36,118 nt of DNA, taken from positions 1-36,118 of the IMG/VR virus record IMGVR_UViG_3300025759_000277; one strand, given 5' to 3'. Shown here piece after piece: positions 3,795 to 32,890 of the stretch. The position numbers were made by a program, and so were the translations under genes. The DNA is from a virus. Every line of letters begins with the position of its first letter. The stretch's first letter is position 1. The notes below the pieces were generated by a model, which ran no database searches, was not told where the DNA came from, and worked only from the letters and a program-made list of their open reading frames with translations.

Positions 3795-5093
3795 CTAAGC
3801 CCCCATCATTCTCAGGTAGTGATTCGTAAACACCGGAACAGAAACCCCGTCAGAAGGAACGACGATCCAGCCAAGGTAGTGGAAGTTCGCCCCACCTGCC
3901 ACAGCAGCAAAGTTATGATTTGATCCATCAGACGCCCAACTGTCAAAAGATGCCTTCACCTGATACCCCGAGCTTTGCGGGGAGAAGATGTTTGGCACAC
4001 CCAAAGACCTTGAAGACGCATTAGAACCCGTAGCAGTCGTGCCAACACCATCATCAACACCGCCACCTACAGCATAAGAGTTGGTGCCGTCAATAGCGGA
4101 AACATGCAAGGTGCCAGGATCGTTATTGCTTCGGATGCCTGTGTTGTTTCTCGACCCACAACCAGACAGCATTTCAATCGCAGGCGTTCCCGTTCCGCCA
4201 AACGCAATCCCGTAGTCCAGCTTGTTCACACCTGTTGTCGTGTAGTTATTATTGTCAAATGGCTCTAGCCGAACATCACACCCGCTGTTCCATTCAAGCG
4301 CCAAATACCCGACACTGTCTGAGTTGCTGACATCGCTGCTCGTCGTAAATCCACTGGCACTCCATGTGCCCACCGTCATGTTGTAGTCAAAGCCGCTACT
4401 GCCGGTGTCCGTAAGCTTGGAAATCACACAAGACTCTTCCCAAGCCGAAGCAGGGGCCGATGTAGACAATCCATCCCGCATCAGCATAGACCAACCAAGG
4501 TTGGAAGAAGTCGAACTGGAGAATGTGCTTGTATCCAGCCCCATCCCAAACATCATGTGGGCACCATTCTGAACAGTGCCGCTGGCAATCCCGGTTCCAA
4601 TAGCTGCCATAATAACCTGATTAACAGCAAACCCCGGAGCCGTTACCGTAGCGCCCGTCCCACAAGTGCCGACATATGCGTTAGCAAGGTCCGTCCCACC
4701 GAGTAGTACTACAAAGCCCTGAAACCCGGATGGCGATGCATCAGACCAGTTAATCCGCACCCCATTCGTAATCCAACTACTGAAAGCCGCCTTGTACGTC
4801 TGCGCACCAGTCCCATCAATTCCCCTCAGAACAGCATCCGTATACGCCGCACTGTAGTCGTCCGTTGTAGTCACGCCCGTTTCTGAATGCACTACCGAAT
4901 AGAACTCATTCGTTCCATCAGTCATGCCCATCGTGAAATGAAAAGGCGTAGAGGGTGTATCAGCTAGAGTCGTCTTCTCTGTCATAAAGAACAACGCCGC
5001 CTTCGGGTTCTCCCCGCCCAAAGAACCTGTGATGTCCTGCGTACCCGTACTCGTATTCGCAGTGAAGTTCACAACCGACGCATAAAGGCTCAT
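3795..5093 (-). CDS. Putative receptor-binding or virion surface protein
   Basis: 432 residues, rich in Gly, Ser, Thr, Asn and aromatic residues, with almost no charged helices, which is typical of a secreted-type beta fold on a virion. It starts MSLYASVVNFTANTSTGTQD. Two stretches look like related halves: residues 30-130 (KAALFFMTEKT, FHFTMGMTDGTNEFY) and residues 150-210 (GFAVNQVIMAAIGTG, MMFGMGLDTS). No enzymatic motif is evident. Its stop codon directly abuts the start of the fibre gene, and the 104-residue gene lies just upstream. From position and composition it is a fibre-tip or receptor-binding candidate; I do not recognise the family. Confidence 0.6.
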   Translation of the reverse strand: MSLYASVVNFTANTSTGTQDITGSLGGENPKAALFFMTEKTTLADTPSTPFHFTMGMTDGTNEFYSVVHSETGVTTTDDYSAAYTDAVLRGIDGTGAQTYKAAFSSWITNGVRINWSDASPSGFQGFVVLLGGTDLANAYVGTCGTGATVTAPGFAVNQVIMAAIGTGIASGTVQNGAHMMFGMGLDTSTFSSSTSSNLGWSMLMRDGLSTSAPASAWEESCVISKLTDTGSSGFDYNMTVGTWSASGFTTSSDVSNSDSVGYLALEWNSGCDVRLEPFDNNNYTTTGVNKLDYGIAFGGTGTPAIEMLSGCGSRNNTGIRSNNDPGTLHVSAIDGTNSYAVGGGVDDGVGTTATGSNASSRSLGVPNIFSPQSSGYQVKASFDSWASDGSNHNFAAVAGGANFHYLGWIVVPSDGVSVPVFTNHYLRMMGA

Positions 5094-5096
5094 GGC

Positions 5097-5411
5097 CTAT
5101 ACCCCGCTGGTGGCGCTGGTCAGCTTGCTAAAGAAAGTCGTGGCGTCGTCCATATTGAAGTGACCGCCCTCCGCCAACCGCATAGCATTCAACGCAATCG
5201 CCAGGAATAACCGCTTGTTCGTCGCCCCGGCATACATCGACTTGAACTGAACCCATTCGGGATCAGAAGGGTCAAGATCAAACTCCGCCTCAATCTGAGC
5301 CACAGTAGGCTGACCAATTAACGTATAAAGCTCAATGGCAGCCGACAATGGCTGAATCGGCAACTTCGGCTCCGTCAACGTCCTGCTGACCAACCGCGCA
5401 TGAAATCCCAT
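5097..5411 (-). CDS. Hypothetical protein of the fibre block
   Basis: 104 residues from the ATG at 5411; a TTG three bases upstream would add one residue but is less likely. The sequence starts MGFHARLVSRTL and contains a helical C-terminal half (NKRLFLAIALNAMRLAEGG). An acidic stretch FDLDPSDPEWVQF sits in the middle. It is coupled to the upstream 52-residue gene (TGATG overlap) and lies three bases before the 432-residue virion protein. A chaperone or connector for the fibre module is possible, but I recognise no family. Confidence 0.6.
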   Translation of the reverse strand: MGFHARLVSRTLTEPKLPIQPLSAAIELYTLIGQPTVAQIEAEFDLDPSDPEWVQFKSMYAGATNKRLFLAIALNAMRLAEGGHFNMDDATTFFSKLTSATSGV

Positions 5412-5569
5412 CAAAATCTCCTGTTTTCAACCGCTTCCTGGAGGATGCCTATTGCCCGTATGTCCCACGGGGCCAACCCTAGCATATCCATATGGGCTAC
5501 CGCCGCCTCTATAGCGGCCCCTATAGCCTGAAAACCCGCTGTATTAACAATATTTTTGTGTACCGTCAT
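5411..5569 (-). CDS. Small hypothetical protein, first gene of the fibre block
   Basis: 52 residues starting MTVHKNIVNTAGFQAIGAA, with an alanine-rich amphipathic helix and the ending LQEAVENRRF. The reading frame fills the gap upstream of the 104-residue gene and ends in a TGATG overlap with it, which supports translation. An AAAGG element lies about 12 bases before the ATG. The start is just leftward of a divergent plus-strand promoter. I see no convincing sigma70 promoter for the minus strand here. The function is unknown. Confidence 0.5.
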   Translation of the reverse strand: MTVHKNIVNTAGFQAIGAAIEAAVAHMDMLGLAPWDIRAIGILQEAVENRRF

Positions 5570-5577
5570 TTTTTATG

Positions 5578-5606
5578 TTGACCTTTGGTGTTGTAACATA
5601 TATATA
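5578..5606 (+). promoter_or_regulatory. Sigma70-like promoter of the small plus-strand cassette
   Basis: TTGACC at 5578-5583, 17 bases, then TATATA at 5601-5606. An alternative -10 TATATT sits at 5603-5608. The first gene starts at 5640. The spacing and hexamers are close to consensus, and the element lies in the only AT-rich gap of this area. Confidence 0.65.
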
Positions 5607-5617
5607 TTGATCATCAA
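5607..5617. promoter_or_regulatory. Candidate operator palindrome
   Basis: TTGATCATCAA is a perfect 5+5 palindrome around a central C, immediately downstream of the -10 element and ahead of the ribosome binding site. This is a typical place for an autoregulatory repressor site. The last gene of the cassette encodes a ribbon-helix-helix protein that could bind it. The pairing is inferred. Confidence 0.4.
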
Positions 5618-5639
5618 CAACGCACATAAGGAACGTCCA

Positions 5640-5885
5640 ATGTCAAACTCCAAAAAGCAAACCATCATCGCATACACCGCTGGCACCAATTCTGTAGAGG
5701 CTGTAGTAGAACCATCACCCCGACAACGCGGCCCACGCTACCAAGCAAAGTGCACTATAACCTTCACCAACAACGGCGGCGTCAATGCCTCACATCACAA
5801 GACAGAAATGTTCGACAGAAAAGACCACGCTGCCGCATGGGCAATGCAGGTTGCCGGTGAAATGTTCCAGCAGCGCGTTTATTAA
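5640..5885 (+). CDS. Small hypothetical protein, first gene of the plus-strand cassette
   Basis: 81 residues from the ATG at 5640, preceded by AAGGA at 5628-5632. A longer frame from 5556 would begin upstream of the promoter and is rejected. The protein is soluble and moderately basic: MSNSKKQTIIAYTAGTNS, a PSPRQRGPRYQAKCTITF segment, and a helical end AAWAMQVAGEMFQQRVY. I do not recognise a family. It is an orphan gene at the head of an isolated operon that ends with a regulator, an arrangement seen for morons and for anti-CRISPR operons; that comparison is by context only. Confidence 0.65.
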   Translation: MSNSKKQTIIAYTAGTNSVEAVVEPSPRQRGPRYQAKCTITFTNNGGVNASHHKTEMFDRKDHAAAWAMQVAGEMFQQRVY

Positions 5886-5918
5886 GAGCCACCAACCAAC
5901 CCCGAAAGGACAAGTCCA

Positions 5919-6050
5919 ATGGAAATCATAATCTTTCTTATCCTCGCCTACGCTGCCATCCGCGTAGGCTGGTGGTTGTTGCAAGCTGCCGTTTTCGTTC
6001 TTATTGCGTTGATTGCTATGATTGGCGCAGCATTCAGGGGTGATCTATAA
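5919..6050 (+). CDS. Small membrane protein
   Basis: 43 residues, MEIIIFLILAYAAIRVG then WWLLQAAVFVLIALIAMIG, ending AAFRGDL. Nearly the whole chain is hydrophobic, forming one long or two short membrane spans. It has a good GAAAGGA ribosome binding site at 5904-5910. The stop codon shares bases with the next start (TAATG). The function is unknown; small phage membrane peptides are often superinfection-exclusion or lysis-timing factors. Confidence 0.6.
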   Translation: MEIIIFLILAYAAIRVGWWLLQAAVFVLIALIAMIGAAFRGDL

Positions 6051-6232
6051 TGAACACCAAATCAATCAAACGACTTTGTGCCTGTTGTGGCACAGCCGCA
6101 ATAATTCTGGGCCAAGTTTTAGCTATCATTGCCGGGCAGTGGTTCCATGTAGTCGCTGGCGGCATTCTAACACTAGCTGGTGCCGCCCTATGCGCCGCTG
6201 CTATGATTATCCACTGTGAACTAGAGGACTAA
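6050..6232 (+). CDS. Small two-span membrane protein
   Basis: 60 residues. After a short basic start (MNTKSIKRLCACC) come two hydrophobic spans, about residues 15-30 (AAIILGQVLAIIAG) and 34-55 (VVAGGILTLAGAALCAAAMII), then an acidic end HCELED. Its translation is coupled to the preceding 43-residue membrane gene by TAATG, so the two probably work together. I do not recognise the family. Confidence 0.6.
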   Translation: MNTKSIKRLCACCGTAAIILGQVLAIIAGQWFHVVAGGILTLAGAALCAAAMIIHCELED

Positions 6233-6238
6233 AAGAAT

Positions 6239-6418
6239 ATGGAAAAGAGAAAACCTGGACGCCCTAAACTGGCAGAAGAACAACGCAAGCGCGGCACCCG
6301 CCAAACCATATACATCAACAAGGTTACACTGGACAAAATCGACGCCCTACGCGCCGTCACTGGCGAATCCCGACAGCAAATCATCTATGAAGCCATCAGC
6401 AAGCTGTTGGAAGGATGA
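6239..6418 (+). CDS. Ribbon-helix-helix DNA-binding protein with AT-hook-like N-terminus
   Basis: 59 residues. The N-terminus MEKRKPGRPKLAEEQR has a GRP core typical of AT-hook-like minor-groove binding. It is followed by a ribbon (TRQTIYINK) and two helices (VTLDKIDALRAVTG and SRQQIIYEAISKLLEG), the usual Arc/MetJ/CopG pattern. It should dimerise and bind a palindromic operator; the best nearby candidate is at 5607-5617. It closes the plus-strand cassette and is followed by an intrinsic terminator. It is likely an autorepressor of this operon and may also act on other phage promoters. Confidence 0.75.
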   Translation: MEKRKPGRPKLAEEQRKRGTRQTIYINKVTLDKIDALRAVTGESRQQIIYEAISKLLEG

Positions 6419-6426
6419 ACAGTAAA

Positions 6427-6462
6427 CCCCCGGCCACATATGCCGCTAGGCGTGACCGGGGG
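6427..6462 (-). terminator. GC-rich hairpin ending the leftward replication operon
   Basis: Arms CCCCCGG at 6427-6433 and CCGGGGG at 6456-6462, extended by CAC/GTG after one mismatch, enclose a 14-base loop. Read on the minus strand the hairpin is followed by TTTACT, a short U tract. It lies 90 bases beyond the stop of the leftward HTH gene. It could act on the minus strand, or cooperate with the adjacent plus-strand terminator. Confidence 0.5.
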
Positions 6463-6482
6463 AGTACCGGGAGAAAACCTTT

Positions 6483-6512
6483 AGCTAGCGCAACAACGCT
6501 AGCTTGACTGTT
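6483..6512 (+). terminator. Intrinsic terminator of the plus-strand cassette
   Basis: A perfect 8-bp stem AGCTAGCG/CGCTAGCT (6483-6490 and 6497-6504) with loop CAACAA is followed on the plus strand by TGACTGTTTTTGT. It lies 65 bases after the ribbon-helix-helix gene and faces the convergent minus-strand operon, so it insulates the two transcripts. Confidence 0.75.
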
Positions 6513-6550
6513 TTTGTAGCACGACTGTAAAGAAATTCAAAGCATTCCGT

Positions 6551-7084
6551 TCATTTTTTGTTCTTTTTCTTGCTCACCACCTGATGATAGGCATCTAAGC
6601 CCGCCCTGAGCCTCTTTGCAGCCGTTGGCCTAGACCTGCCAAACGCCCGCGCCATCTTGTTGATCGACATACCCTCTACGGCCAGCCCGATCACAAATTT
6701 ATGGCACTCTTTATCGCCATACCGGGCCAGTTCTTCCCGCCATGCGCTATAACGCATTTGCTGGGCCGTATTTGCTTCCTGATGGGCAGAAGCGTTGGAA
6801 TGGTCTACCCGGTCTAAAGACCCACTGGCGTAGCCCTGTGAGGCTGTGAGGCCCATATAGGCACTGGCAATGTCCGACAGGGCGCGCTCATCATCGGAAT
6901 CTAGAAAGCCTGATGAAACCAGCCGGTCTATCGCGTGGGGTTCGACCTTGGCCTTGGTCTCTGGCGTTGGGCCTGCTCTGCCAGTTTTGGCCTCCAGGTT
7001 TTGCTGGTCACGCTCAACAGCGATCATCTTGCGAACTCGCCGCGCTTCCTGCTTTTGCCTGCGCCTCATGTGTTCTACACTCAC
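6551..7084 (-). CDS. HTH DNA-binding protein, last gene of replication operon
   Basis: 177 residues. The N-terminal third is basic and helical (HMRRRQKQEARRVRKM). The middle has KVEPHAIDRLVSSGFLDSDD, reminiscent of a domain in alphaproteobacterial DUF6456-like proteins. The C-terminus carries a helix-turn-helix (EGMSINKMARAFGRSRPTAA then KRLRAGLDAYHQVV) and a lysine tail. Its start overlaps the previous stop by 4 nt. As the promoter-distal regulator of the replication operon it may control the switch to late transcription; that is inference from position and the HTH. Confidence 0.65.
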   Translation of the reverse strand: MSVEHMRRRQKQEARRVRKMIAVERDQQNLEAKTGRAGPTPETKAKVEPHAIDRLVSSGFLDSDDERALSDIASAYMGLTASQGYASGSLDRVDHSNASAHQEANTAQQMRYSAWREELARYGDKECHKFVIGLAVEGMSINKMARAFGRSRPTAAKRLRAGLDAYHQVVSKKKNKK

Positions 7085-10631: not shown

Positions 10632-10659
10632 TTGACAGGAAAATTCATTGCTGTATAAT
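10632..10659 (+). promoter_or_regulatory. Strong rightward early promoter
   Basis: TTGACA at 10632-10637 and TATAAT at 10654-10659 are both perfect sigma70 hexamers, separated by 16 bases. Transcription should start near 10666, only about 15 bases before the ATG at 10681. This rules out the in-frame ATG at 10648 as the start. Confidence 0.85.
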
Positions 10660-16848: not shown

Positions 16849-16880
16849 AGCCCCGCCCAACCGTTAGGTCAAGCGGGGCT
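16849..16880. terminator. Terminator between convergent operons
   Basis: Stem AGCCCCGC (16849-16856) and GCGGGGCT (16873-16880) enclose a 16-base loop. On the minus strand it is followed by TTTTCTT, a good U tract, so it mainly ends the leftward lysis unit. On the plus strand the tail AATTCTT is weaker. It sits between the last genes of the two convergent operons. Confidence 0.75.
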
Positions 16881-27081: not shown

Positions 27082-27218
27082 TGCGCCTCATTCTTGATCT
27101 TAAAATAGGCCCGCCAATGAGTGAACTCATCCAGCGGCATGGCCATAATCTCCGATGCAGACTTGCTCAACGCCTCGCCTAACGCATAGACATCGCGCAA
27201 GAGTGCATCGCTAGTTAG
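27078..27218 (-). CDS. Frameshift extension of tail assembly chaperone (gpT-like part)
   Basis: This 46-codon open frame has no start of its own and lies in the -1 frame relative to the upstream chaperone gene. Read through a slip at 27218-27224 it gives LTSDALLRDVYALGEALSKS...PLDEFTHWRAYFKIKNEAQ. The end with E-F-x-x-W-x-A-Y-F is typical of gpG-T fusion proteins. The fused product is about 159 residues. It ends exactly at the tape measure start. Confidence 0.8.
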   Translation of the reverse strand, partial: LTSDALLRDVYALGEALSKSASEIMAMPLDEFTHWRAYFKIKNEAQ

Positions 27219-27556
27219 TTTTTTTCCGCGTCCTCGAAGCTGATTGAAAGCAGCATTTCAGCCGCCAACTGGCTCAGAATATCAGGCCGCGCAAACTTCT
27301 TGAGAATGGGCTTGTCTTTAATCGTGAAAATAGGCTCACCATGCTCATCAAGAGCCTTCATCACTATGATGCCGACAACCTGGTCATCGTTGCCATCCAA
27401 CTTTGCTATCTTGGCCCGTTCTGCAAGGTTTATGGGGAGCCAAAAAACTTCATATTCAAGCTCCTCTCCGTCTACAACTAGGGACAAGACACGCGATCGC
27501 ATGTCTTGCCCCTTGTAGTCAGCAGCCAACGCCTCCGCTAGTGTTGGCCTGCTCAT
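27215..27556 (-). CDS. Tail assembly chaperone (gpG-like)
   Basis: 113 residues: MSRPTLAEALAADYKGQDMR, a beta segment LSLVVDGEELEYEVFWLPIN, and a helical end AEMLLSISFEDAEKN. Its position between tail tube and tape measure and the slippery sequence at its last codons identify it as the short chaperone of the gpG/gpG-T pair, which coats the tape measure during tail assembly. It begins at the tail tube stop (TAATG). Confidence 0.8.
   Translation of the reverse strand: MSRPTLAEALAADYKGQDMRSRVLSLVVDGEELEYEVFWLPINLAERAKIAKLDGNDDQVVGIIVMKALDEHGEPIFTIKDKPILKKFARPDILSQLAAEMLLSISFEDAEKN
27218..27224 (-). promoter_or_regulatory. Programmed -1 frameshift site A_AAA_AAC
   Basis: On the minus strand the last codons are GCG GAA AAA AAC TAA. 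The heptamer A AAA AAC is in the right phase for a canonical X XXY YYZ slip just before the stop, and the -1 frame then stays open for 46 codons to the tape measure gene. Confidence 0.85.
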
Positions 27557-29497: not shown

Positions 29498-29519
29498 GGG
29501 AGCGCCCTAAGACGCTCCC
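29498..29519 (-). terminator. Hairpin downstream of the capsid gene
   Basis: GGGAGCG and CGCTCCC (7 bp) enclose an 8-base loop, and on the minus strand the stem is followed by TTCTATTTCTT. It lies 14 bases after the capsid gene stop, so it may partly terminate and make capsid mRNA more abundant than the downstream tail genes. Confidence 0.65.
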
Positions 29520-29532
29520 AAACTACTAGCTA

Positions 29533-31443
29533 TTACGCGCCATCGTTGTTGTAAGCAAAGCTCACAGCATGGCGAACGGCTACATCAACGCTCTGGTGAG
29601 CTACAATGCGAACCGTGCCGCTCAGGCTATTGGTGTAAGGATCAACAAGGATGTCCAAGCCGCCCCAAAGGCCAATTACCACATCAGCCCAATTACCAAA
29701 GAACACATCGCCAGCCGTTACCTGGTTGGAGACAACCGCGTTGTAGCCGTTGACTTCATTGCCCATCCATACGAACTGGCCCGTGTCGGTGCCTTTGTCC
29801 TTTGACTTCAGCCCGCCGCGTGTGGTCGGGTCGGTCAAATAGGCCAGAGTGCCAACCAATGCGTTGTCAACATCAACCTGAGTTTCCATGTCGATCATTT
29901 CTGCAAAAGTCGGAACAGCAGCCGCAAACGCCGTTGGGGCGTTAATGCCGCTGGTGTTGGCTACACCCGTAGGCTGACCAGATGAACCGGAGCCATACAG
30001 CGCACCAGCATCAATCAGGGTGGCCATGCCCTGCGCAAGATCATTACGCAAGAAGGCTTCCAGGCCGATACTGGACTGCTGGAGAAGCTGGCGAGTCACT
30101 TCAGTGTAAGTGCCAGCCGTTTTCGGAGACATCGTAACCTGGTCGAACTGCGGGTCAGACTGTGCAGCGTTGCCGCCTTCCGTGCTAATCCATGCAGAAG
30201 CCGAGCCACTGGTAACACGCGGGATAGCAACGTCACCAACCAGACCCTCAAGGGTCGTGGCACCAAGGCCCATAACAACGGAACGATTGCGGAGAACGTC
30301 AATCAAGGAGCCTGAAAGCAGGTCCGTTGATACCAGTTCCGCGCCGTCTGTTGCCGTGCCAGCCGACAGATCACGAACCATGCGGCCCGTCATATAGCGA
30401 GACAGGGCTTCAGGCGGGATGACAATGCCCTTTGGCTGCGGAAGGTTGTTCTTGCGGACAAACTCCTGCGATGCCTCAATGGCATGGCCAGCCTTACGGC
30501 GAGCCTCAGAATCATTCGGGTTCAACTGATAATTCACAATATCCACAATGCGGATGTTGTCAATGTCTTCAGTTGTCAGGCCAATTGGCTTGGCCTTCTC
30601 TTCGCGGATTTCACCGCTCTCAGCGGCAGGCTTCGCGTCCTGGGCAGCGTCCTTGGCATCAAGAACGCGCTCACGCGTCTCATCCATAGACCAACCAGAC
30701 CGCACAGCCTCATCAGCCATTTCTGGCAGACCACGCTTGGCACAATAAGCCGTAACGTCAGAAACGCGCTTGCGCTCCTGTGCTACAGCCGTTTCAGATG
30801 CGACAGTTGCAGCAGCGCGCACAGCCTCATCATTTGCAGGAGCTTCCTGCTTTACTTCTTCACTCATAATAGGTTTATCCTCTGTTCGAGTGGTTTCACT
30901 AGAGCGCCCCATGCCAACCGTATGGTCCGCTGGTACGCCAACAATTGAGGCTTCATGCAAGGTCCAGCGGGTCACAGAGACTTCACCAGCCCCCTCTTCC
31001 CACTCATCCCAGCGATAACCAATAGACACATCAGACCGAATGCCATCGCGGACATCAGCCTCAATATCTTTGGCAAGCTGGGAATTTCCGAACTTGACTG
31101 CACCTCTTAGTTTCCCGTCTTCCACCCGAACATCATCGACGCGCCCAATAAGCTCATCGGTCCTATGGTTGTGAAGCAAGGGAAGCCCTCTATGTGCAGC
31201 CCGCTCCAGGTTTACGGAGTCAGGCGTATGCACAAGAATCTCTTTGTAATCGCCCCGGTCATAAGCAATGTCGCTTGAGAGCGACAACTCAAAAACCGGC
31301 TTCTCTGAATCGCCGTCCATACGGCTTGAAATAGAGCCGTTAAAATTACGATCCAGGGACCGCAGATCATCTTTGCTGCGGCCATTAAAAAACCCGGCAC
31401 TCTGGCCGGGTTCTGTTAGTTTCATGTCTTTATCTTCAGGCAT
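29533..31443 (-). CDS. Fused prohead protease and HK97-fold major capsid protein
   Basis: 636 residues. The N-terminal 180 residues are an S78-type prohead protease: GLPLLHNHRTDELIGRVDDV (His93) and RSDVSIGYRWDEW (Ser140). The segment from about 200 to 290 is acidic and helical like an HK97 scaffold or delta domain (EEVKQEAPANDEAVRAAATV). The C-terminal 330 residues are HK97-type capsid (LLSGSLIDVLRNRSVVMGLG, VAIPRVTSGSASAWISTEGG, YGSGSSGQPTGVANTSGI). Protease, scaffold and shell are thus made as one chain and presumably separated by self-cleavage. An AGGAGG site supports the start; a terminator-like hairpin spans codons 11-20. Confidence 0.9.
   Translation of the reverse strand: MPEDKDMKLTEPGQSAGFFNGRSKDDLRSLDRNFNGSISSRMDGDSEKPVFELSLSSDIAYDRGDYKEILVHTPDSVNLERAAHRGLPLLHNHRTDELIGRVDDVRVEDGKLRGAVKFGNSQLAKDIEADVRDGIRSDVSIGYRWDEWEEGAGEVSVTRWTLHEASIVGVPADHTVGMGRSSETTRTEDKPIMSEEVKQEAPANDEAVRAAATVASETAVAQERKRVSDVTAYCAKRGLPEMADEAVRSGWSMDETRERVLDAKDAAQDAKPAAESGEIREEKAKPIGLTTEDIDNIRIVDIVNYQLNPNDSEARRKAGHAIEASQEFVRKNNLPQPKGIVIPPEALSRYMTGRMVRDLSAGTATDGAELVSTDLLSGSLIDVLRNRSVVMGLGATTLEGLVGDVAIPRVTSGSASAWISTEGGNAAQSDPQFDQVTMSPKTAGTYTEVTRQLLQQSSIGLEAFLRNDLAQGMATLIDAGALYGSGSSGQPTGVANTSGINAPTAFAAAVPTFAEMIDMETQVDVDNALVGTLAYLTDPTTRGGLKSKDKGTDTGQFVWMGNEVNGYNAVVSNQVTAGDVFFGNWADVVIGLWGGLDILVDPYTNSLSGTVRIVAHQSVDVAVRHAVSFAYNNDGA
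31387..31412 (-). terminator. Intrinsic terminator-like hairpin inside the protease-capsid gene
   Basis: On the minus strand AACCCGGC, loop CAGAGT, GCCGGGTT, then TTTT: a perfect 8-bp GC-rich stem, a 6-base loop and a six-T run. It encodes codons 11-18 of the fusion gene (EPGQSAGFF). A translating ribosome would cover it; uncoupled transcripts should stop here. Confidence 0.65.
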
Positions 31444-32890
31444 CTTCAGCCTCCTCTATTTGCTCTTGAGCAGCAGGGTCCGACAGACTCAACCCCATCG
31501 ACGCCGCCAACTCTTGTTCTGCCTTCAAATCCTTAAACACATCCTCCAAATCACGGCCAGCAGCCGCCGCGATAATCGTGCGCGATGTAACGCCCATGCC
31601 CAACTCGCTCATATTTGCGTTTGCTTCTTTAACTGGGTCAACCCATGCCCAGCCGCGTGGTTGCCATGTGGCCGCGTTGAACTTCTCATATCGTGACGCA
31701 GGCAAGTTGAGCGCCGTAGAGCCAAGCGAGGCAATGAGCCAACGCTCGAAGATAGGCGCGCAAATGGCGCCAATCATCCATTGCTGAATAATTCGCCATT
31801 GATCCTGCTCCATCAGGTTTCCTTGCCGCAGGCTGGAGAAATTAACGCCTTCAAGATCGCCAGCAAGATAGTTGTAAGCAGTACCCAGACCAGCAGAAAC
31901 ACCCCTCAACATCGACTTGAGGAAGTCGCCAAATTGGCTCATAGGGTGCTGCGGGTCAAACGCCTCAAACCGGCTGCCCTCTGGCAACTGCTCAATAACG
32001 CCCGGTTCCACCTCTTGAATCAGGTTGCCCATGCTGTCCGTATCGTCAGGATCGTAGCCGTCACCGTCCTGTGAATAAATAAAGCCCATTTTTGAAGCCG
32101 CTGAGCGAGCCGCTACAAGTTCTGCTTCTTCATAGCCGTGCAGCATCTTTAGGCGCTGCATCCCGGCATGTAACCAGGGGACGCCACGCCAAGCGCCAAT
32201 CTCTTCTGGCATGAAAGCGTGTAGAATCTGGTCAGCAGGAACACGGCGATATTTACGGCCACCCTTTAGATGGCCATGCTCTTCTGGGTGTTCATTCAAA
32301 AACCAATAGGCGATAGGGCGCGACCACTCATCCGCTTCAACCCCTAGTCGAATATTGCGCCCACCATATGTATCATTCAGGTTATGGTCTAGCTTATCAG
32401 GCTCAATAAATTGCATGGCGAAACCGTATGGCCCCGCGCTACGCCCCTCGACAAGCTGGATAATAACCTCGCCGTCCACCGCCACCGATTGAATGGCCTG
32501 CTTTTGGGCATCCAGCCACGAATAACGGCCATCCATTGTGCAGCTACGGCCCCACTCGCGCCAAGCTGCCTCAATACGCTCATTTGCAAGCGTGTCATAA
32601 CCGCTTCCAATATCATTACGCACCCGCATCTGGAGCTTGATGCCGTGCGGCCCAACCACGTTGGCCACCAGTAGCTTGCCATATTTACGCGCATAGTCAT
32701 TGTTGCGGAAAAGATGCCGGGAACGCGCCCGCATTGTCTTCAAACCAACGTGGATATTCTGGTTCGGCGTCTTGTCTGCGACATTAAAGTCAGAGGTCAA
32801 GCGGGAAATAATCCCCGCGTCATAGCCCCTGACGCGCGGCATGTGTTGTTTGCGGCGAGGACTTTTGCGGAAACGATCAAACATACTCAT
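31436..32890 (-). CDS. Portal protein (lambda gpB / phage_portal_2 family)
   Basis: 484 residues. The family signature is RARSRHLFRNNDYARKYGKL with LVANVVGPHGIKLQM at about 53-90, then AWREWGRSCTMDGRYSWLDA, FIEPDKLD and AGLGTAYNYLAGDLEGVNFS near 330. The basic N-terminus RFRKSPRRKQHMPRVRGYDA is usual. It forms the dodecameric DNA channel. It overlaps the gpW-like gene (ATGA) and the protease-capsid gene (8 nt). Confidence 0.9.
   Translation of the reverse strand: MSMFDRFRKSPRRKQHMPRVRGYDAGIISRLTSDFNVADKTPNQNIHVGLKTMRARSRHLFRNNDYARKYGKLLVANVVGPHGIKLQMRVRNDIGSGYDTLANERIEAAWREWGRSCTMDGRYSWLDAQKQAIQSVAVDGEVIIQLVEGRSAGPYGFAMQFIEPDKLDHNLNDTYGGRNIRLGVEADEWSRPIAYWFLNEHPEEHGHLKGGRKYRRVPADQILHAFMPEEIGAWRGVPWLHAGMQRLKMLHGYEEAELVAARSAASKMGFIYSQDGDGYDPDDTDSMGNLIQEVEPGVIEQLPEGSRFEAFDPQHPMSQFGDFLKSMLRGVSAGLGTAYNYLAGDLEGVNFSSLRQGNLMEQDQWRIIQQWMIGAICAPIFERWLIASLGSTALNLPASRYEKFNAATWQPRGWAWVDPVKEANANMSELGMGVTSRTIIAAAAGRDLEDVFKDLKAEQELAASMGLSLSDPAAQEQIEEAEDA

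Follow-up and report, generated by a model that had tools for sequence, protein, structure and literature searches.

A 36-nucleotide in-frame insertion carrying a predicted intrinsic terminator at the start of a phage protease-capsid gene

Introduction

Late transcription in phage λ involves the terminator tR′, which sits just after the late promoter, in the late transcript, and which the late polymerase must pass in the tR′/Q arrangement. Terminators are normally expected after genes. Here we analyse a 36,118-nucleotide stretch of viral DNA, referred to below as the window, in which nature has seemingly placed an in-frame terminator at the start of the gene that the phage needs most, encoding a fusion of prohead protease and major capsid protein. 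In the literature listings searched, no title dealt with a terminator within the capsid gene of a phage.

The influence of translation on intrinsic terminators has been measured in Escherichia coli. In one study, translation from an AUG that lay 30 bp ahead of λ tR2 cost the terminator only approximately 10% of its efficiency, since a ribosome that has just started is too slow to prevent termination (PMC4824070). The same study describes how ribosomes finishing at a nearby stop codon upstream mask a terminator: at 17–18 bp from the stop, efficiencies of 0.12 or 0.8 were measured, according to the sequence, and the maximum (~0.9) was reached beyond about 27–30 bp (PMC4824070). In a second study, the pyrL terminator within a translated E. 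coli reporter still cut expression approximately 18-fold (PMC5021804).

Results

The minus strand of the window reads AACCCGGC CAGAGT GCCGGGTT TTTT exactly from position 31412 to position 31387. The stem is perfect, with eight Watson–Crick pairs of which six are G–C, and its last two bases are also the first two T's of the T6 run, leaving four unpaired T's followed by AAT. Two features of an intrinsic terminator, a GC-rich perfect stem with a short loop (8 bp, 6 GC, loop of 6) and a U tract adjoining the stem (T6, with two paired in the stem), were both found. RNAfold assigned the 22-mer –13.7 kcal/mol and a 41-nt segment –16.2 kcal/mol, the longer fold having 10 pairs (one A–U and one G–U extra), and in each case none of 200 shuffles was as stable. 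A static fold of 100 nt contained only small, weak helices upstream of the stem, none of them competing with it. By sequence, the element is a genuine intrinsic terminator, and its activity and efficiency in termination are predictions. The preliminary description of this DNA had reported a canonical terminator in the protease-capsid coding sequence, and its coordinates, 8-bp stem, 6-nt loop and six T's were all confirmed. The features discussed here are collected in Table 1.

Table 1. Positions of the terminator, the insertion and neighbouring or related features in the window
Feature	Position	Strand	Basis or remark
Intrinsic terminator: 8-bp stem, 6-nt loop, T6	31387..31412	–	Sequence, shuffles, fold
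36-nt insertion, 12 codons, KLTEPGQSAGFF, carrying the terminator	31387..31422	–	DNA alignment
Prohead protease / major capsid fusion, 636 aa, ATG at 31443	29533..31443	–	Peptidase_S78 + Phage_capsid
Portal gene, λ type	31436..32890	–	TGA 31438–31436 overlaps capsid start, 23 nt upstream of the 8-bp stem
Capsid Shine–Dalgarno region, AGAGGAGGC	31449..31457	–	Predicted anti-SD pairing –12.0 kcal/mol
Further 9-bp hairpin with a weak T tail, immediately past capsid stop	29498..29519	–	
177-aa ORF (P0003), C-terminal HTH, weak match to Q-like family phrog_79	6551..7084	–	E 6.6e-4, residues 119–169

Other identities for the same bases were rejected. An Rfam scan of the window produced no match at the gathering threshold, and the sub-threshold matches at the terminator, mostly to small-RNA families, had E values of at least 0.29 and were taken as chance. 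A slippery heptamer must sit in a particular phase to act, and the TTTTTTA at the T run is out of the required phase as read from the sequence. For a mobile palindrome family (RPE, REP or MITE), there was one copy in the window and there were no exact 23-mers in viral_contigs.

Chance expectation was assessed with a strict definition (perfect stem of at least 8 bp, at least 6 GC, loop of 3–8, T-rich tail), which was fixed after the hit was known. The terminator was the sole match on both strands of the window. No strict match appeared in 60 synonymous shuffles or in 60 codon-order shuffles of 21 window ORFs (22,101 nt), and when the first 30 codons of the capsid gene were shuffled synonymously 20,000 times, a strict terminator was present in 4. 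The 161 related-phage loci (1.99 million strand-bases) contained two strict sites, with none within sense ORFs of at least 200 aa (0.87 million strand-bases); this set excludes loci L011–L130, which were fetched by the terminator pattern and scanned separately. A loose scan of this half of the window, which reported the terminator site for the plus strand only, gave 22 terminator-like sites against 16.4 (sd 4.0) in shuffles, no clear excess. Under the strict definition, post hoc as it is, the terminator is far beyond chance.

In the ORF at 31443–29533 the stem spans the second position of codon 11 through the second position of codon 18, and the terminator overall occupies codons 11–19 of the fusion gene. 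The stem begins 31 nt past the A of the capsid ATG, and the portal stop lies 21–23 nt upstream of the stem. AGGAGG stands at good spacing ahead of ATG 31443, and the predicted anti-SD pairing at this start exceeds the –7.1 kcal/mol calculated for each of two close relatives, L002 and L003. The first in-frame ATG, GTG or TTG 3′ of the hairpin is codon 42, which is without a Shine–Dalgarno sequence (–1.7 kcal/mol). Codons 20–41 differ from those of L002 and L003 by 11–12 synonymous and 6 non-synonymous changes (dN/dS 0.15–0.17). Because AGGAGG precedes 31443, no further start occurs until codon 42 and codons 20–41 are under purifying selection, the capsid ORF is, as far as sequence can tell, translated through the terminator. 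The ORF concerned is a structural one of 636 aa, not a short leader peptide ORF of the pyrBI type. The earlier view that a terminator at such a place in a capsid gene is unexpected was upheld; the element is real and lies inside translated sequence.

DNA alignment with the closest complete-gene relatives, L002, L003 and L004 (89% protein identity), showed that the terminator belongs to a 36-nt insertion. This consists of AAACTAACAG followed by the terminator, with the last T of the run as its 3′ edge. It is in frame, contains no stop codon and has its edges at codon boundaries, where we placed them (MAFFT moves them slightly and adds one codon upstream). The 36-nt segment, including its amino acids, is missing in all three relatives, whose capsids align to the window from residue 19 only, and the portal-capsid overlap and start are the same in the window and in L002–L004. 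Collinear blocks shared with L002, of ~5.9 kb (76% DNA identity) and ~2.9 kb (71%), together ~8.8 kb, contain the insertion as their only indel of at least 6 nt; blastn breaks it into three adjoining pieces. One other indel of this size, a 12-nt intergenic gap, was found in the comparison with L003. That the terminator belongs to a discrete in-frame insertion makes the observation stronger than first claimed.

The N-terminal leader of the capsid is variable among relatives. In 58 unextended relatives the distance from the start to the conserved SS strand had a median of 36 residues and was at most 47 in 54; these are the loci kept, out of 148, by automatic choice of the start nearest the portal stop and an SS-strand pattern, L002–L004 having entered by their second ATG and many dropped loci having long N-terminal extensions. 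The corresponding distance in the window is 57, or 45 without the insertion. Long leaders do occur, with 55–67 residues before the SS strand in 4 of the 58. From these distances, the window most likely gained the segment, by insertion rather than through deletion in the relatives. The terminator stem retains its perfect pairing, a state compatible both with a recent arrival and with selection to keep it.

No comparable terminator was present in 115 distinct portal-capsid junctions of relatives, where just two weak 6-bp stems were seen (shuffles for this survey were plain base shuffles). Scans with the capsid, the portal and the 23-mer found no second phage of the window's lineage carrying the insertion. 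Searched with capsid and portal, viral_contigs yielded no full relative in the identity range 52–85%, and genome_contigs yielded no further close relatives.

An exact 26-mer of the terminator was found in three bacterial genomes in genome_contigs, from Roseibium, Pseudomonas and Luteibacter. Each copy lies tens of bases or less past a stop codon, with no evident sense gene over it, a placement judged by eye from upstream stops and not from annotation; two of the three are covered by long open frames on the opposite strand, of 299 and 628 codons. The flanks of these copies showed no resemblance to the first 10 nt of the insertion. At least 120 viral contigs carry the form AACCCGGC-N6-GCCGGGTTTTTT. 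Among the matches listed, 123 places had the same arms and T6; 25 were in same-strand ORFs of at least 100 aa, and one was in a same-strand ORF of at least 200 aa, that of L093, where the start is over-called and an ATG follows soon 3′ of the terminator. By sequence, the terminator of the insertion is a gene-end terminator, since the same 26-mer follows stop codons in three bacteria and the form is rarely found in long same-strand ORFs.

L011–L130, also among the matches listed, gave 138 strict matches, nine of them inside sense ORFs of at least 200 aa and 27–420 nt past the first possible start. An ATG directly follows the T run in seven of these nine and shortly follows it in L093; as the ATG comes at once or soon, these eight ORFs are merely over-called upstream. 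The loci L019, L049, L050, L067, L069, L078 and L100 have AGGGTGCC-N4-GGCACCCT-TTTTT and then immediately the ATG of a gene of ~800 codons. A terminator abutting a start codon, as in this AGGGTGCC group, makes automatic ORF calls extend upstream through the terminator.

The window also has a second hairpin, beyond the other end of the capsid gene. GC-rich hairpins of other sequence occupy the same place in L002 (~5890–5920) and L003 (~4520–4557), and a terminator-like hairpin just after the capsid gene was seen in 9 of 114 relatives' regions, so that hairpins at the capsid 3′ end may be recurrent. Elsewhere in the window, a promoter at 10632–10659 (plus strand; TTGACA-16-TATAAT, 12/12 consensus) lies ahead of rightward genes for a RecE-like exonuclease and a Sak-like annealing protein. 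At 16880–16849 on the minus strand lies a hairpin of 14 pairs, very strong at –27.6 kcal/mol (46 nt), whose tail is TTTTCTTATG. An imperfect palindrome at 27474–27519, with 27-nt arms (85% complementary) and the centre GCGATCGC, lies inside the ORF at 27215–27556.

The ORF matching the Q-like family is placed after the replication genes. It matched no Pfam family above cut-off and no NCBIfam family, and no relatives of it were found in phages or in viral_contigs. As a candidate antiterminator it is only a hint. Just after it, at ~6463–6420 on the minus strand, inspection of the region 5050–6700 by eye showed arms rich in C and in G with TTTACTG after them, a possible tR′-like terminator with a large loop.

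Discussion

The sequence of the element, its insertion relative to the relatives and the signs of translation through it were observed directly; from these we infer termination and its efficiency, together with the source, recency and near-neutrality of the insertion. The reading that we think probable is that a recently captured, active but leaky terminator is tolerated in the late operon. The 36-nt piece would have entered whole at the portal/capsid boundary in this lineage. Its probable origin is illegitimate recombination involving a terminator from a gene end in a bacterium or in another phage; alternatively, it would be what remains of a cargo gene since lost. By luck it would have been in frame and so have lengthened the N-terminal leader, a variable part of the capsid-protease polyprotein, by 12 residues. 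When the last T is transcribed, the nascent hairpin would form and a fraction of polymerases would stop, ending the late transcript after portal. Ribosomes starting on the capsid gene would arrive too late to interfere, and those just off the portal gene would partly mask the terminator. The phage would tolerate it because termination is incomplete, because the late polymerase is antiterminated, or both.

The geometry of the window closely fits the E. coli measurements (PMC4824070), by which the terminator should be partly active and partly masked; E. coli rules may not hold in the host of this phage. With the portal stop 21–23 nt upstream and the capsid AUG ~30 bp away, masking would come from portal rather than capsid ribosomes, and we infer that portal translation tunes the terminator more than capsid translation does. 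The preliminary description had suggested that the terminator could make capsid transcription depend on active translation or a late antiterminator. A dependence on ribosomes, antitermination or both should hold, whereas the protecting role that the description gave to capsid translation is probably wrong here, judging from the same study (PMC4824070). A terminator before the gene whose product must be made in hundreds of copies should be a burden, and this need for capsid implies that termination is leaky or that the late polymerase is antiterminated.

The main rival to a captured, tolerated terminator is a selected valve or checkpoint in the late operon, at which unmodified polymerase would halt after the terminase, connector and portal genes until the capsid and tail genes were opened by a Q-type antiterminator or by heavy translation of portal. 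Such a device would account for a terminator that is intact and sited where capsid ribosomes shield it least; the ORF at 6551–7084 weakly matches a Q-like family, and the capsid Shine–Dalgarno sequence, stronger than that of relatives (–12.0 vs –7.1 kcal/mol), could offset fewer transcripts. However, the Q-like assignment comes from the HTH only, in a protein with no Pfam match above cut-off and no NCBIfam or phage match, and a checkpoint is hard to reconcile with the lack of the terminator in 3/3 close relatives and of anything comparable at 115 distinct junctions. We regard it as unlikely, and the checkpoint after portal suggested in the preliminary description is, as an evolved device, not upheld on these last two grounds. 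Highly unlikely, in our estimate, is that the captured element is a domesticated, ribosome-read valve, heavy portal translation, with ribosomes halting 21–23 nt ahead of the stem at the border of the repression zone, letting polymerase into the capsid and tail genes and the stronger Shine–Dalgarno sequence being a compensating change. If this were true, shell and tail mRNA would be made only when portal is well translated.

The hairpin could instead terminate little in the host, its 12 residues making merely a longer linker. Just four T's lie outside the stem before AAT, the N-terminal leader is variable among relatives, and portal ribosomes stop within the zone that was partly repressed in the E. 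coli work (PMC4824070). Yet the stem is typical in energy and form, the 26-mer is found at gene ends in three bacteria, and even the translated pyrL terminator reduced expression strongly in E. coli (PMC5021804), so that an inert insert seems distinctly unlikely to us. An erroneous join of a 36-nt piece during assembly or library preparation is extremely doubtful: the evidence is a single metagenomic contig whose 23-mer is in no record of viral_contigs, a set that may be without records near the window, but an accidental join would rarely combine a length that is a multiple of three, the lack of a stop and ends at codon boundaries. Scarcely conceivable is a start of translation after the hairpin, which would make the terminator intergenic and the long ORF over-called. 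That is the pattern elsewhere, where the nine strict in-ORF matches (such as L093 and the AGGGTGCC group) lie near ORF starts, with an ATG after the T run in eight; here, however, the next start, codon 42, has no Shine–Dalgarno sequence to set against AGGAGG at ATG 31443, and codons 20–41 are under purifying selection.

A captured, leaky terminator would illustrate one way in which a gene can gain a regulatory signal along with a short extension of its protein. The pair of phages with and without the insertion, their proteins 89% identical, offers a means of measuring how translation, antitermination and dosage accommodate an internal stop signal.

Like λ tR′, the window terminator would lie in a late transcript; unlike tR′, it is in the capsid gene, and Q is only a candidate. 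In the construct W48, which has λ tR2 within the first 100 bp of an ORF, the hairpin lies, as in the window, ~30 bp beyond an AUG and close to a stop codon upstream, but W48 is an engineered E. coli plasmid (PMC4824070), whereas the window terminator is natural, lies in the late operon of a phage and is followed by a long gene. Attenuators of the pyrBI type (PMC4824070, PMC5021804) resemble the window in having a translated intrinsic terminator governed by ribosome position; the window differs from them in being without a leader peptide, a competing helix in the static fold or a known signal. Bacterial gene-end terminators of the form AACCCGGC-N6-GCCGGGTTTTTT have their arms, loop size and T run in common with the terminator of the window. 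As far as examined they stand between genes, whereas that of the window appears to be read as protein at the start of the capsid.
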